Below are positions 41,734-48,304 of a stretch of DNA of 64,000 nucleotides, one piece after another. Both the position numbers and the translations under genes were made by a program. The stretch is taken from positions 124,001 to 188,000 of the forward strand of contig NZ_CZPZ01000012.1 in the NCBI RefSeq assembly GCF_001458775.1, written 5' to 3'. The DNA is from Candidatus Nitrospira nitrificans (lineage in GTDB: Bacteria; Nitrospirota; Nitrospiria; Nitrospirales; Nitrospiraceae). Within the stretch, counting starts at the first letter, position 1; each line of letters starts with the position of its first letter. Below the pieces are notes generated by a model. That model saw only the letters and a list, made by a program, of their open reading frames with translations, ran no database searches and was not told where the DNA came from.

Positions 41734-42351
41734 ATGACTACATCACGTTCCGCAGATCAGCCCCTGATCGCCCGCGAAGACCCGGCGACAGACCCTGACC
41801 GAGTCGGTGGGCTGCCGCACCCTGACGATCGATCCGCAAGCGGGAACCTCGACAAGATTCGCGATATTCTCTTCGGCGCGCAAGCCCGAGAGCATGACCG
41901 TCGGTTTGCGCAACTCGAACAACATTTAATCCGTGAAGCCTCTGATCTCCGCAACGATCTCAAACGACGTTTTGAAAGCCTTGAGCTCTACATCAAAAAA
42001 GAAGTGGATGCGCTCACGAGCCGGTTGACCAAGGAGCAGGAAGTCCGAGGGGAATCCGTCACGAACCTGACGAAGGACCTCACCCAACTGGCTGCAACCC
42101 TTGAGACGAAAGCGCGTCTGTTGGATATGCAGGCGACCCAAGCGCAAGCGCATGTTCTCCGGCAGCTGACAGAACGGACAAGCGAGCTGGCGACCGACGT
42201 TCGCGCTCGACATGCCGAAGCCACGTCGGCGCTCAACCAGGCCGTCCGTGATCTCCGCGCGGAAAAGACGGATCGTGCGACGCTCGCAGCCATTTTATTG
42301 GAGGCATCTCAACGGCTGTCCGATGATGAGGCGGTCTCCGGTCGCGGCTGA
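41734..42351 (+). CDS. Coiled-coil protein, first gene of the GTPase/OmpA/sigma-54 unit
   Basis: 205 residues without a known domain. A disordered N-terminus (about 1-38) precedes KIRDILFGAQAREHDRRFAQ and then an almost continuous charged coiled coil to the end. No signal peptide or membrane helix is visible, so it is probably cytoplasmic and oligomeric. The start follows GAGAGGAAGGTG. It lies 69 bases ahead of the OmpA-type gene on the same strand and is likely part of the same transcript. It could be a scaffold or effector for the GTPase, which is inference. Confidence 0.65.
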   Translation: MTTSRSADQPLIAREDPATDPDRVGGLPHPDDRSASGNLDKIRDILFGAQAREHDRRFAQLEQHLIREASDLRNDLKRRFESLELYIKKEVDALTSRLTKEQEVRGESVTNLTKDLTQLAATLETKARLLDMQATQAQAHVLRQLTERTSELATDVRARHAEATSALNQAVRDLRAEKTDRATLAAILLEASQRLSDDEAVSGRG

Positions 42352-42420
42352 GCCTCGCAACAGCGGGCCGCGCGGCAGTCTCTTGGTGATCTATCGAGTC
42401 CATGACGATCGTATTGCCCC

Positions 42421-44184
42421 ATGTCTACCGATCCACACAGGCCTCATCGCGATTCTCCATCTGCTGAAGGACTCACGTCCGTAGACGAAGACTGGACCCA
42501 GCTGCGCACGCTTTTACTCTCTCCGGAGCAGACGCAACTCGACGAACTCCGTGAACGGCTCGACAATCGAGGGATTCAGCCTCGCGAGGTCAGCCGGGTG
42601 CTCCCCGAGGCGTTGGCCATGCGCGGCGAACGCGATCAACAGTTGTCGAACGTCCTGACGCCTTACGTGGAGAATGGTTTTGCCGCGGCGGTGCGGAAGT
42701 CGCCGCGCGCGATCGTCGATGCCATCGCCCCGATCATGGGGCCGGCCATCCGGCAAGCCATCACGCGCGCCTTACAGAGCATGACGCAGTCCTTCAACCG
42801 CTCCTTGGACGAGAGCCTCTCCCTTCGTGGCCTCCATTGGCGATTGGAAGCCTGGCGGACAGGGCGCCCGTTCGCCGAAGTCGTTCTGCTCCATACGCTG
42901 CGCTATCGCGTGGAGCAAGTGTTTCTCATCCATCGCGAGACCGGGCTCCTCCTGCGCCACCTGGCGGCTGAGGGGGCCGTGGTCCAGGACCAGCACGTCT
43001 TGTCCGGCATGCTGACGGCGATTCAGAACTATGTGCGGGATTCCTTCGGAGCCTCACAGGACCAGACACTCGACCAGTTTCAAGTCGGTGACTGGACGGT
43101 CTGGATCGAACAGGGGTCAGAAGCCTACCTGGCAGGCGTTATTCGAGGAACTCCACCTGCGACCCTCAGAGAGGATTTCCGAGACGCGCTGGATCGTCTC
43201 CATGCAGAGCAAGCTGTTGCCTTGACTCACTTTGATGGAGACGCGGCGCCGTTCAAGACGACACAGACCTACCTGGAAAGCTGTTTACAAGCCCGCTATG
43301 AATCACCATCGCGATCCAACGGCTTGAAGCTATGGATTCTGGCCGGAGTGGGTCTATTCCTGCTCTCGTGGTGGGGCGCAATGGCCTACCACATCCACGC
43401 TCGCTGGTCCAATCTGCTGGCGGAGTTGGGAGCGGAGCCGGGCATCGTGGTCACCATGGCGGAATCGACATGGAGAGGGTATCGCCTGGAGGGGTTGCGA
43501 GACCCCTTGGCCAAAGACCCCTCGGCGATGGTCATCGCAGCCGGTTTTGACCCATCGACCATCACGGCCGTCTGGTCTCCTTATTATTCGCTGGACTCTC
43601 GACTCGTCGAAACGAGGGCTCAATCGATGCTGCAACCACCGAGCACCGTCAAGTTGCGCCTCGAAGGAGACGCGCTGGTTGCCAGGGGCTCCGCTTCAAC
43701 CGAGTGGGCCAGGGAGACCAAGCGTTTGGCGCCGCTGATTCCGGGAGTCATTCACTACCGAGACGAAGGCCTCGTCACGACGGACCTCTTGGCTCAGATC
43801 AATCAGACGGTGATTCATTTCGGTCCCGGTTCCTCGACCGTGGGGCCGGCTGAACGGGCGGCGTTGGCCTCTGTAGAAGCCGCGTTGCGCGACTTGGATC
43901 AAGCCGCGTTCCAGTCTGGTCAGGGCGTGGTCTTCGAGATACGTGGCTCGACCGACGAGACAGGCCCGGCAACCCTTAATATTCAACTGAGTAAGGAACG
44001 GGCCCAGGCCGTTCTCGCGCTTCTCGGTGGGGAGCACATGGGGAAGGCCACGACAGTGGTCGACAACAGTGAGGGTTCTCTGGAGCAGCGTGGGGCGCAG
44101 GGGAAATCCGAGAACCGACGGATCGTGACCATGCGGGCCTCCCTCACTCCGGCGGGTCTGGAAAATGAGGTCGCCCGTCCATGA
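42421..44184 (+). CDS. Inner-membrane OmpA-family sensor-like protein with a Roadblock/longin-like region
   Basis: 587 residues. About 300 N-terminal residues are soluble. The segment VVLLHTLRYRVEQVFLIHRE-TGLLL followed by SGMLTAIQNYVRDSF (about residues 153-205) resembles the Roadblock/longin-type folds that pair with Ras-like GTPases. One membrane helix (LWILAGVGLFLLSWWGAMAY, about 302-322) follows. The periplasmic part has a BON-like stretch and a C-terminal OmpA peptidoglycan-binding domain (VIHFGPGSSTVGPAERAALA, then STDETGPATLNIQLSKERAQ). It thus could link the cell wall to a cytoplasmic GTPase. The stop overlaps the GTPase start by 4 bases. Confidence 0.75.
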   Translation: MSTDPHRPHRDSPSAEGLTSVDEDWTQLRTLLLSPEQTQLDELRERLDNRGIQPREVSRVLPEALAMRGERDQQLSNVLTPYVENGFAAAVRKSPRAIVDAIAPIMGPAIRQAITRALQSMTQSFNRSLDESLSLRGLHWRLEAWRTGRPFAEVVLLHTLRYRVEQVFLIHRETGLLLRHLAAEGAVVQDQHVLSGMLTAIQNYVRDSFGASQDQTLDQFQVGDWTVWIEQGSEAYLAGVIRGTPPATLREDFRDALDRLHAEQAVALTHFDGDAAPFKTTQTYLESCLQARYESPSRSNGLKLWILAGVGLFLLSWWGAMAYHIHARWSNLLAELGAEPGIVVTMAESTWRGYRLEGLRDPLAKDPSAMVIAAGFDPSTITAVWSPYYSLDSRLVETRAQSMLQPPSTVKLRLEGDALVARGSASTEWARETKRLAPLIPGVIHYRDEGLVTTDLLAQINQTVIHFGPGSSTVGPAERAALASVEAALRDLDQAAFQSGQGVVFEIRGSTDETGPATLNIQLSKERAQAVLALLGGEHMGKATTVVDNSEGSLEQRGAQGKSENRRIVTMRASLTPAGLENEVARP

Positions 44185-44696
44185 TGCAGAAGAAGATCTG
44201 CATGCTGGGTGGATTCGCGGTCGGGAAGACCAGCCTCGTGCGACGATTCATGACCAATGTGTTTTCGGATCACTATCGCACGACGATCGGCGTAACGGTG
44301 GAGAAGAAGAGCGTCAGCGTCGACAACCGGGACGTGACGCTGCTGCTGTGGGATCTGTACGGAGAAGACGAGTTGCAACGCGTGCGTGAGTCATATCTTC
44401 GCGGCTCATCCGGTTATATCTTGGTCATGGACGGCACCAGAAAATCCACCGTGGACACGGCGATCGCGCTGCAACAGACGGCCGCTCGAACGATAGGAGC
44501 GGTTCCGTTTGTCTCGATCATCAACAAAGCGGACGTTCGATCGGAGTGGGAGATCGACGAGGGCGTGATCGAGCAGCTCCGCGAACGAGGCTGGACCGTC
44601 CTGTTCGGCAGCGCGAAGCTCGGTCAAGGGGTCGAAGAGCTGTTTGCGCTGCTCGCCGCTCAGATCGTGAGTGCCTCCGCGCTTCTCCGTGATTGA
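44181..44696 (+). CDS. Ras-like small GTPase
   Basis: 171 residues and a complete small-GTPase domain. G1 is GGFAVGKTS (residues 10-18), G2 has the conserved Thr in YRTTIGVTVEKK, G3 is WDLYGEDE (57-64), G4 is NKAD and G5 is SAK. The Gln that follows the G3 glycine in Ras/Rab proteins is Glu62 here, so hydrolysis may depend on a partner. It is closer to Rab/Ras-type bacterial proteins than to Era or MglA. It overlaps the OmpA gene by 4 bases and ends one base before the sigma-54 activator, so all three are coupled. Confidence 0.85.
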   Translation: MMQKKICMLGGFAVGKTSLVRRFMTNVFSDHYRTTIGVTVEKKSVSVDNRDVTLLLWDLYGEDELQRVRESYLRGSSGYILVMDGTRKSTVDTAIALQQTAARTIGAVPFVSIINKADVRSEWEIDEGVIEQLRERGWTVLFGSAKLGQGVEELFALLAAQIVSASALLRD

Positions 44697-44697
44697 C

Positions 44698-46500
44698 ATG
44701 GAACGTCGAAATCCCGATTTCGCGCCGGTCGACGACTCCCTGTTTCATCGTGTTCTGTCGGCGCTCAATGTGGCGGTCCTTGAGCGGAGCGACAGCGGGG
44801 ACGCCTTTCATCTTCGGGGGCTGCCGCCGGAATGGTGGCGTCAGTGCGTCGGTCCGACGGAATCCCACGTATTGAACCTCCTCCAATGGTCGCCCTTTTT
44901 GCAGGATTATGTGGCCGATCCTCACCCTGCTTGGGACGACAAGCCCGGCACGATAGAGAAATCAGGCCCATGGACGGAGTCCGATCGACAGGGGGGCATC
45001 ATGACATTGGAGGCCACCGCTCTTGCGATCGGATCCCGAAGGCTCTTGCTCATTGAACGCCTGGGCGCCGGTTTTGAACAGATGCACGCCATCGTGCAGC
45101 GGGCCAGGGAAAAGATGCTGGCCGAAGCCGTCACCGTGAAGTCTCACCGCAAGGCCGAGACGCGCCTGATGGGGCAACTCGAAGCCAGCGAGCGAATCAA
45201 GGACGACGCGCTGGCTCTACTTCAGCACCTCGGGCTCGCCGCGCTTGTTCTCGACGAACGTGGGTGCATCACGTTCGCCAGCGATCGCGGTCTTGAGATA
45301 CTGGGATGCGCGGCCGAACACCTGATCGGCCGGGCGTGGGACCAAGCGCTTCCGCTCCAGCCGCAAGATCGCTCGATGATTCGAGAGATGATTGACGCCT
45401 CCTCAGCCGACAGGAAAGTCGGCCCGTTGTACCTCGGCGGACCTCGTCCGGCTTGGGTTGAGATGGAGGTCCATCGAGACCCCCGCCAGCCGGGTCGGCA
45501 AATCGTGGTATTGAACGACCGCACCGAGCTCCATACGCTCCGTCAGGCGCTCAGCGAGCAGGCCTCGTTCCATGATCTTGTGGGCAAGAGTCGCGCAATG
45601 CTTCGAACGTACCAACTCGTTCGAGATGTGGCGCAGGTGGATACGACGGTCTTGATCGAAGGAGAGACCGGAACAGGAAAGGAATTGATCGCTCGAGCCA
45701 TCCATTTCTCCAGCGCGAGAGCGCAGAAGCCGTTCATTGCCGCCAATTGCGCGGGATTAACCGACTCAATCCTCACGAGCCAACTGTTCGGCCACAAGCG
45801 TGGGGCTTTTACCGGGGCCGTGGCCGATCAGCAGGGACTCTTCGAGGCGGCGGAAGGCGGAACGTTGTTCCTTGATGAAATCGGAGATATCCCGTCGCCG
45901 GTCCAAACGGCGCTTCTGCGGGTGTTGCAGGAAAAGGAGATCACACGACTGGGAGAGGCCAGGCCTCGAAAAGTCGACGTGCGGGTGGTGGCGGCCACGC
46001 ACCATAATTTGAGCGAAGACGTCATTCGAGGATCGTTTCGAGCGGATCTTCTCTACCGCATTCGTATCGCCAGAATCCAACTTCCCCCGTTACGAGAACG
46101 CCGCGAGGACATCCCCCTCCTCGCCCATTCGTTCCTGAGCCGGCTCTGTGCCGCCACCGGAAAGACCGTTGATGACCTGAGTCCGGACACACTCCGGCTC
46201 CTCATGAGCCACGCATGGCCGGGCAATGTGCGCGAGCTGAAAAGCGCCCTCGAATTCGCGGTGATCAGCTGCAAGGGGAGAGACATTCTTCCCACGGATC
46301 TCCCGCCGGAAATAGCGGCCGCCCCGGTTGCCCCCCGTCCCTCCACGTGGATTCCGTTATCGGGCCAGGACGAGAAATCTAAACTGCTTGCCGCCCTCTC
46401 CGAGGCAAAGGGTAACCGGACGGAAGCCGCCAAACGGCTGGGAGTCAGCCGAGCCACGTTCTATCGCCGCCTGGTCGAGCTTAATATTCAACCCAGCTAG
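44698..46500 (+). CDS. Sigma-54 enhancer-binding activator with a PAS-like domain
   Basis: 600 residues. The N-terminal 170 or so residues are not a receiver domain and are unrecognised. Residues about 174-285 look like PAS (LGLAALVLDERGCITFASDR). The AAA+ domain starts at LVGKSRAMLRTYQLVRDVA (about 293) with Walker A GETGTGKE (about 322), the sigma-54 contact loop GAFTGA (about 371) and LFLDEIGDI. A Fis-type helix-turn-helix (GNRTEAAKRLGVSRATFYRR) ends it. The ATG at 44698 is one base after the GTPase stop. The unknown N-terminus could take the GTPase signal; that is inference. Paired enhancer-like sites follow at 46629-46664. Confidence 0.9.
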   Translation: MERRNPDFAPVDDSLFHRVLSALNVAVLERSDSGDAFHLRGLPPEWWRQCVGPTESHVLNLLQWSPFLQDYVADPHPAWDDKPGTIEKSGPWTESDRQGGIMTLEATALAIGSRRLLLIERLGAGFEQMHAIVQRAREKMLAEAVTVKSHRKAETRLMGQLEASERIKDDALALLQHLGLAALVLDERGCITFASDRGLEILGCAAEHLIGRAWDQALPLQPQDRSMIREMIDASSADRKVGPLYLGGPRPAWVEMEVHRDPRQPGRQIVVLNDRTELHTLRQALSEQASFHDLVGKSRAMLRTYQLVRDVAQVDTTVLIEGETGTGKELIARAIHFSSARAQKPFIAANCAGLTDSILTSQLFGHKRGAFTGAVADQQGLFEAAEGGTLFLDEIGDIPSPVQTALLRVLQEKEITRLGEARPRKVDVRVVAATHHNLSEDVIRGSFRADLLYRIRIARIQLPPLRERREDIPLLAHSFLSRLCAATGKTVDDLSPDTLRLLMSHAWPGNVRELKSALEFAVISCKGRDILPTDLPPEIAAAPVAPRPSTWIPLSGQDEKSKLLAALSEAKGNRTEAAKRLGVSRATFYRRLVELNIQPS

Positions 46501-46628
46501 GTCGATCTGCCGGCGCAGCGGTCTCCTGCTCCGCAAGGGCATTGATCTCTCACGACTGCCCTTCCACTCCTCCTGCGATAGCGCCCGTCGGTTACGCTCT
46601 CCGGAATCGTCTCACGAATCGGGATGAC

Positions 46629-46664
46629 TGTCTCATGAGACACGTCGTTGTGTCAGGTGAAACA
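46629..46664. promoter_or_regulatory. Two enhancer-like palindromes TGTNTCA...TGANACA, 20 bases apart
   Basis: Site 1 is TGTCTCATGAGACA (46629-46642), a perfect 14-base palindrome. Site 2 is TGTGTCA-GG-TGAAACA (46649-46664), the same half-sites with a 2-base spacer. The starts are 20 bases apart, about two helical turns. Both lie roughly 105-140 bases before the start site predicted from the -24/-12 element at 46741, the usual place for enhancer-binding proteins. Confidence 0.5.
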
Positions 46665-46740
46665 GCGGGCTCGATTCCCGCGAGGTTCAGAATGCCGGCA
46701 ACTGGTTGATTACATGGAAAGCTGCCGTTGCCCCTCCATG

Positions 46741-46756
46741 TGGCACGAGGGTTGTA
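46741..46756 (+). promoter_or_regulatory. Sigma-54-type -24/-12 element TGGCACGAGGGTTGTA
   Basis: It matches TGGCACR-N4-TTGCW at all consensus positions except the -12 C, which is T. GG and GT are 12 bases apart. It lies between the enhancer-like palindromes and the 46843 gene. Confidence 0.45.
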
Positions 46757-46842
46757 CTATCGCCATGGCTATCAAGGGAACGTGATGCGACTCGTCTCAG
46801 AGTACGTCATCAACGGATAGAGGATTTGAGAGGTCACGCAGC

Positions 46843-47157
46843 ATGCATGTGCGAGGGTTGCTCGTGGAAGACCATAACGGACAGGACTTCCTTCTGAGCA
46901 CTGAATCGCGCACGGGGATGAGGAGGCATCAATTGGTCGCCTTGCAACGAATCAATGGTCAGTGGAAACCCGTAAAGGGACCTGAAGAATCGGCTTGTCG
47001 AGAATTGCTGATCGGCGCATTTGTCGATTTCTTTGTGGATATCTGCAGAGTGTTGAACTCGTCCGGCGCAGATCGGATCGTGGCGATCGCTCCCATGTCA
47101 GGTCGATCTCGCCCGCGACGCACGTTCCATCTCAAAGCCCGGCGACCCTGTAACTAG
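46843..47157 (+). CDS. Uncharacterised 104-residue protein downstream of the sigma-54-like promoter
   Basis: Not recognised. The ATG follows GAGAGGT at 8 bases. The N-terminal half is strand-rich (HVRGLLVEDHNGQDFLLSTE), the middle has an amphipathic helix (LLIGAFVDFFVDICRVLNSS), and the end is very basic. No signal or membrane segment is visible. It is the first gene after the -24/-12 element and so a likely target of the upstream activator. The zinc-ribbon gene follows after 35 bases. Confidence 0.5.
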   Translation: MHVRGLLVEDHNGQDFLLSTESRTGMRRHQLVALQRINGQWKPVKGPEESACRELLIGAFVDFFVDICRVLNSSGADRIVAIAPMSGRSRPRRTFHLKARRPCN

Positions 47158-47192: not shown

Positions 47193-47429
47193 ATGAGGTG
47201 TAAACGATGTGGTGGATTGATGATCGTGGAGCTGGGCGGGGATGAAGATCTCGCGGAGCAGGCGGCGGGGCGGGGGGCGTTGCGCTGCGTGAATTGCGGG
47301 GCGATGGTGAACATAAGGATGCTGAGAAACCTTGCGGCTCAATATACCGAAGGACTCGCGCCTGTCAGGCAATCCGTTCCGAGGCGTCGCCATACAGAAC
47401 GCCGGCTTACCATGAAAGGGGACGTGTGA
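47193..47429 (+). CDS. Small double-CxxC zinc-ribbon protein, paralogue of the 10380 gene
   Basis: 78 residues. MRCKRCGGLMIVELGGDED holds the first CxxC and LRCVNCGAMVN the second, giving one zinc site, followed by an Arg-rich tail. The gene has a good ribosome-binding site (AAGGAGACC). It is probably co-transcribed with the 46843 gene and thus may belong to the sigma-54 target unit. The function is unknown. Confidence 0.65.
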   Translation: MRCKRCGGLMIVELGGDEDLAEQAAGRGALRCVNCGAMVNIRMLRNLAAQYTEGLAPVRQSVPRRRHTERRLTMKGDV

Positions 47430-47611: not shown

Positions 47612-48304
47612 ATGGACACATTCACTGGAATACGAGAACCGATCCGTGTGTTGCTGATCGACGACTCCACTCTGACTCTCCATGGGCTCAAGATGTTCGT
47701 GTCCACGAGCCGCCACATCGAAATCCAGGGCATCGCCCGCACGCCGATCGAAGCCTTCGACGCGATACGGGCTCACCAGCCGGATGTCGTGATGTTAGAG
47801 GCCCGCGTGGGGCAAGCGAGCGGCATCGACTTGTGTAGAGCCATCCGTGAGTCGCATCCGAACATCGGGGTTCTCTTTTTTACCGCGTACGACGATACGG
47901 AACTTCTGCGCGCGGCAATCGTGGCCGATGCGCACGGCTACCTTCTGAAGGGCGCGGCAGCCGAGGCTGTCGTCAGGAGCATCGAGATTATTGCGACCGG
48001 GAAAGCGATCATGGACCAGCAGTTGACTCAACAAGTCATCACGTGGGTCCGAGATGAAGGGCAGGCGGCACAGCAGCGGATCCACTATCGCTGTTCGAGC
48101 GACGATCGCCGACTGCTCTCGCTTGTGGCCCTCGGGAAGACAAACAGGGAGATCGCGCAAGAAATGAACCTTGCGCTTCGTGTAGTGTCGACTCGCTTAC
48201 AAAGAATCTATAAGCGTTTGAAGATATCCAGGCGATCCGAAGCGGCGCGATACTATGTGCAGTCGGAAAAGGATCCGCATGGGCTTGAAAACTGTTCTTG
48301 CTAG
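47612..48304 (+). CDS. LuxR/NarL-type response regulator with Glu in place of the phospho-acceptor Asp
   Basis: 230 residues. The receiver domain keeps the acidic pair (VLLIDDST), the Thr (LFFTAYDD) and the Lys (YLLKGAA), but the strand 3 end reads VVMLEARVG, so the expected phospho-Asp is Glu63. The C-terminal HTH is LLSLVALGKTNREIAQEMNL and STRLQRIYKRLKI. A protein like this may act without phosphorylation or be locked in an active-like state. No histidine kinase is adjacent. A 16-base palindrome lies between it and the DUF481 gene. Confidence 0.85.
   Translation: MDTFTGIREPIRVLLIDDSTLTLHGLKMFVSTSRHIEIQGIARTPIEAFDAIRAHQPDVVMLEARVGQASGIDLCRAIRESHPNIGVLFFTAYDDTELLRAAIVADAHGYLLKGAAAEAVVRSIEIIATGKAIMDQQLTQQVITWVRDEGQAAQQRIHYRCSSDDRRLLSLVALGKTNREIAQEMNLALRVVSTRLQRIYKRLKISRRSEAARYYVQSEKDPHGLENCSC

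Follow-up and report, generated by a model that had tools for sequence, protein, structure and literature searches.

A predicted sigma-54 enhancer and promoter region directly downstream of a PAS-AAA+-Fis activator gene in Candidatus Nitrospira nitrificans

The locus and its genes

We have analysed a 64,000-nucleotide stretch of the Candidatus Nitrospira nitrificans genome (the window, G000:C12:124001-188000) in which a gene for a sigma-54 activator is followed by a compact intergenic region and several small genes. Genome-wide scans were pattern searches over the 4.1 Mb assembly. The features, with their predicted roles, are as follows (positions in the window):

44671..46500, + strand: activator gene, 609 aa, with predicted tandem PAS domains, an AAA+ sigma-54 activator domain and a Fis-type HTH
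46608..46618, + strand: third enhancer half-site, degenerate (CGTCTCACGAA), 21 bases upstream of site A and recurring in relatives
46629..46642, no strand: enhancer site A, the perfect palindrome TGTCTCATGAGACA, most columns invariant in 15 species
46649..46664, no strand: enhancer site B, TGTGTCAGGTGAAACA, at a distance of two helical turns from A; its TG..TCA and GA..C columns do not vary among 15 species
46699..46711, - strand: spacer element CAACTGGTTGATT (reverse of WATCAANNNNTTR), IHF-like and an exact match to the IHF consensus
46741..46756, + strand: -24/-12 sigma-54 promoter TGGCACGAGGGTTGTA, with TGGCA, GG and TTG columns invariant in 15 species
46843..47157, + strand: first predicted target gene; its 104-aa product belongs to no known family and is predicted as beta4-alpha (orthologues, structural model)
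47193..47429, + strand: second gene, 78-aa zinc-ribbon-like protein (CxxC...CxxC), with orthologues and sub-threshold Pfam matches only
47612..48304, + strand: NarL/LuxR-type response regulator (PF00072 and PF00196, conserved synteny)

The activator gene closes a row (41734-46500) that starts with a protein of unknown role and continues with an OmpA-domain protein and a Ras-like small GTPase. The last three genes, activator included, overlap, and the row is kept in many Nitrospira genomes. This arrangement raises the possibility of a GTPase-linked input to the activator. Beyond the response regulator lie genes for a DUF481 protein, MscL (named from its sequence) and another OmpA protein, and most of the gene order around the activator is maintained in ca. 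15-20 Nitrospira genomes. It is a guess, nothing firmer, that these neighbours point to envelope or osmotic stress.

The two small genes after the intergenic region, to which the original prediction had assigned no role, are both real genes conserved among relatives. The 104-aa protein has 23 orthologues (33-72% identity, 14 invariant columns) and its model has a confident beta4-alpha core, mostly with pLDDT >90; a Pfam profile search assigned it to no family and structure comparison gave no significant fold match, the Pur-alpha repeat appearing among weak matches (E ca. 0.7). The zinc-ribbon-like protein has orthologues both within Nitrospira and in further Nitrospirales. The response regulator is placed directly 3' of the promoter in the clade of L054, L055 and L061, and judging from the gene arrangement it is probably co-transcribed with 46843 and 47193.

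The activator protein has the features by which bacterial enhancer-binding proteins are recognised, i.e., an AAA+ domain with Walker A, Walker B and GAFTGA loop, and a C-terminal Fis-type HTH. It matches the Pfam profiles Sigma54_activat (PF00158, 2.4e-66) and HTH_8 (PF02954, 2.3e-10), and carries GETGTGKE at residue 331 (Walker A), GAFTGA at 378, GGTLFLDEIGD at 396 and the arginine-finger region FRADLLYRI at 456, with GVSRATFYRRL as the HTH helix. The model of the N-terminal part matches tandem-PAS structures, and the Pfam search reported no receiver domain. Among the matches listed, the protein fell below the cut-off of every named NCBIfam equivalog. The genome carries one rpoN gene, whose product has, by comparison with the E. 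coli protein, what looks like a normal, intact RpoN box and HTH.

Enhancer sites, spacer and promoter

The intergenic region had been described originally as two palindromes with shared half-sites, starting exactly 20 bases apart, with a -24/-12 element ca. 75 bases further on and a single departure from consensus at -12. All of this holds: TGTCTCATGAGACA starts at 46629 and TGTGTCAGGTGAAACA at 46649, TGGCACGAGGGTTGTA begins after 76 bases from the second palindrome, and the only mismatch is TTGTA against the consensus TTGCA/T. The pattern TGTNTCAN{0,2}TGANACA occurs at three places in the 4.1-Mb genome, namely sites A and B and one further locus, whereas the reversed control pattern gave no match. 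When two mismatches were allowed we found four palindromes against 1.4-1.9 expected, which is not significant alone, and relaxed searches in general (2-3 mismatches) gave numbers near chance. The relaxed palindrome is thus not rare, and what carries weight is the exact pair together with its conservation. The degenerate half-site CGTCTCACGAA corresponds to a TGTCTCA ca. 21 bp upstream in L119, L122, L126, L134, L135 and others.

The -24/-12 pattern TGGCACGNNNNTTGYA has a single occurrence in the window, and 100 shuffles gave none. Its GG at -24 and its spacing are canonical, and at -12 there is GT instead of GC. In the Nitrospira copies the triplet at -12 is TGT in 16, TGA in 10, TGC in one and TGG in one (first-hit count). 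The second promoter, described below, and two loci of Methylobacter have GC. As T or A is conserved here among Nitrospira copies, we read the base neither as a flaw nor as evidence against the promoter, and we rejected the notion that the mismatch betrays a false one. A non-C base at -12 may make the promoter weak and IHF-dependent. Scanning the genome for TGGCAYR-N4-TTGHW gave 14 matches against four for the control, mostly with A or T at the -12 base, some before plausible genes and others within long open frames. The sequence TGGCATGAGGCTTGAT is present twice in the genome, one copy being 60 bp before a pilin-like gene. The predicted transcription start falls at ca. 46767, one base from the 46768 proposed originally. 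A sigma-70 promoter was also considered and rejected: no sigma-70-like site was found on the + strand of the region, the sole match being on the other strand and further on.

The exact IHF-like match in the spacer has counterparts in relatives. Exact matches were found in six of 34 spacers (this window and five relatives) against 0.16 expected (largest shuffle 2), and matches with at most one mismatch in 18 of 34 against 3.0 expected (largest shuffle 9), counts that overstate independence because the spacers are related. The site is clear only in a subset of promoter copies. Four HU/IHF-family genes were found in the genome.

Conservation and association with one activator clade

A check set beforehand was that the palindromes, followed by a -24/-12 element, should recur near orthologous activators, and in related genomes they do. 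In ca. 20 Nitrospira genomes TGTCTCATGAGACA is found 110-114 bp before TGGCAYG-N4-TTG[T/A], downstream of orthologous activators. The same or a closely similar arrangement appears in 13 Nitrospira genomes with orthologues of 69-82% identity and also in diverged ones (ca. 55%). Within the main clade the strongest palindrome keeps this distance to -24 in nearly every genome, whatever the preceding gap, and in L130 the entire block is shifted by ca. 180 bp with the palindrome-to-promoter spacing preserved. A sigma-54 enhancer is expected to consist of phased inverted repeats ca. 80-200 bp upstream that are conserved along with the activator, and the sites agree with this in their 20-21 bp phasing, their fixed distance to -24 in the main clade and their restriction to one clade. 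In the alignment of 15 species the invariant columns concentrate in the palindromes and in TGGCA, GG and TTG, and most other columns vary; these Nitrospira copies are related and therefore non-independent. Duplications of the block were also seen. One Nitrospira genome, G013, has a second copy, ca. 0.9 kb downstream, of the enhancer-promoter block together with the part of the activator gene that encodes the C-terminal end (L047 9026-9193, L124 5800-5850), and in L207 of G023 the enhancer-promoter block is likewise in two copies.

We counted exact TGTCTCA/TGAGACA half-sites in the 400 bp downstream of each homologue: 45 of the 52 that match beyond the AAA+ domain have at least one, and 37 have two or more. 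The mean for these 52 is 2.1 half-sites per homologue against a shuffled mean of 0.09 (largest shuffle 0.21). None of the 25 homologues matching only in the AAA+ domain had a half-site within the same distance. In a tree of the AAA+-HTH portion all motif carriers fall in one clade (support 100/99), which spans Nitrospirota, Methylobacter, one acidobacterium and one planctomycete, and most of whose members share the recognition helix SRAT[FL]YR. Four of the 31 rows of the activator clade (L146, L147, L148, L150) have no sites in the 400 bp downstream, and the same is true of Nitrospira L145. Canonical -24/-12 elements (TGGCACGAGAGTTGCT, TGGCACGGAGGTTGCT) come after the sites at two loci of Methylobacter. 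A Methylobacter scan combining a half-site, a strict gap and TTGGCAY...TTGC gave no match, the sites there being at other spacing. Nothing argues more strongly for the activator as the reader of the motif than the way in which the motif follows this one clade.

Other promoters with the same layout

The third exact palindrome of the genome, TGTCTCATTTGAGACA at C12:364871, is located 194 kb away, upstream of a stand-alone receiver gene, and has the same layout: weaker flanking sites ca. 20 bp off, an IHF-like AATCAATCACTTA and then CGGAACGGACATTGCT, after which comes the gene for a 206-aa protein with a receiver domain. Five further Nitrospira genomes have this arrangement, each time with TTGC at -12. 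The activator probably also controls this promoter. Elsewhere in the Nitrospirales, genes for stand-alone receivers have TGTCTCA/sigma-54 promoters in front of them, and zinc-ribbon genes related to 47193 likewise have one of their own. Methylobacter marinus has a second site and promoter before a putative secreted-protein gene resembling the first target. The activator-motif pair is thus kept across phyla, with different predicted targets. Extra TGTCTCA/TGAGACA clusters with a -24/-12 element are present away from the activator in Methylobacter L222 and L224, one of them before a putative secreted protein.

Interpretation

We believe that the activator encoded just upstream very probably acts on this region as its own enhancer and sigma-54 promoter, driving 46843 and 47193. 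The original reading as a sigma-54 control region is supported by the comparative data: sites and spacing are conserved and track a single activator clade, as can be seen directly in the sequences. As to kind, this is an ordinary control region, unusually complete and well conserved.

There are other possible explanations for these palindromes. They might serve another DNA-binding protein, for example the 47612 regulator, and merely lie beside a sigma-54 promoter that answers to a different activator. A NarL/LuxR-type regulator is indeed encoded nearby in Nitrospira, and proteins of this type also bind inverted repeats. However, the sites are kept beside activator homologues for which no 47612 homologue was detected (other Nitrospirales, Methylobacter, L164 and L165) and are missing beside all the homologues matching only in the AAA+ domain; besides, in the L054 clade the regulator has diverged (31-35% identity) and yet TGAGACA half-sites remain. 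We consider this very improbable. It could also be argued that the sites, being directly 3' of the activator gene, act back, conceivably by DNA looping, on the upstream operon to which the activator itself belongs, and that they serve there in autoregulation or repression instead of as an enhancer for downstream genes. Their fixed distance of 110-114 bp before a forward-facing -24/-12 element speaks against it, as does the second promoter, which has the same orientation and layout far from the activator, and we regard this alternative as extremely improbable.

The remaining alternative, chance or lineage inertia, would have close relatives simply undiverged, and the relatedness of the Nitrospira copies gives it some ground. 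It is contradicted by the half-site counts, the second locus, the alignment of 15 species and the clade tree: invariant columns concentrate in the sites and the -24/-12 element amid varying surroundings, and the copies at the second locus and in other phyla carry the motif amid unrelated flanks. We give it practically no credence.

For a downstream enhancer read by the activator, we infer the following scheme of binding, bending, transcription, operon extent and signal. The C-terminal HTH of the PAS-AAA+-Fis protein (44671) would bind to the phased TGTCTCA/TGAGACA palindromes at 46608-46664, and the 76-bp spacer may be bent by IHF or HU, to which 46699 would offer a site. In the next step the AAA+ ring would remodel the sigma-54 RNA polymerase waiting at TGGCACG-N4-TTGTA (46741-46756), and transcription would begin near 46767 into 46843, 47193 and probably the 47612 response regulator. 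As for the signal, a much broader picture can be drawn: an undescribed multi-phylum sigma-54 system, in which a PAS activator with a TGTCTCA/TGAGACA code switches on stand-alone receivers and zinc-ribbon proteins and, in Nitrospira, is gated by the OmpA-domain protein and the Ras-like GTPase of its own gene row in answer to envelope or osmotic stress. This picture is speculative and, as a whole, we think it unlikely.

With this analysis an uncharacterised activator family of Nitrospira and methanotrophs now has a DNA code and a promoter layout predicted for it, together with a few candidate targets, which makes the regulon testable at once in cultivable Methylobacter. An enhancer motif spotted by eye in one genome has in this way been tied to its protein by a clade-wide comparison.

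Relation to known systems

A literature search found no description of the motif or targets of this activator family. A text search for TGTCTCATGAGACA gave no occurrence among the papers covered, and TGAGACA appeared together with RpoN and enhancer only in one unrelated paper. IHF-assisted sigma-54 promoters include that of nifH. In the orp operons of Desulfovibrio an IHF site and a sigma-54 promoter are used together as proposed here, with the difference that the IHF role is here only predicted and the site strict in a subset of copies (PMC3897727).

The PrsK/PrsR system of PEP-CTERM genes, with its two-part cis motif, is reminiscent of this locus (Haft et al., 2006, PMC1569441). PrsR is also an NtrC-type sigma-54 activator with a Fis-type HTH, and its 17-nt motif, sometimes repeated and followed by a spacer and a -24/-12 element, was likewise found by comparative genomics. 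On the PrsR side, however, motif 1 ends in TTTACA, the spacer is ca. 63 nt, the targets are PEP-CTERM genes, and there are a receiver domain and a paired kinase. Our activator scored 300.7 bits against the PrsR model TIGR02915, for which the cut-off is 502.6, and with a score below cut-off and a different motif we rejected an identity with PrsR/PEP-CTERM.

The one-component enhancer-binding proteins of the Desulfovibrio sigma-54 regulome (PMC4641369) are similar in that activators are co-localised with the operons that they control and palindromic sites lie upstream of sigma-54 promoters. They differ in that other organisms and other targets are involved, and neither TGTCTC nor GAGACA occurs as a string in the main text of that study. 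The regulon predicted here is thus new but of a known kind, that of PAS-AAA+-Fis activators working with sigma-54.
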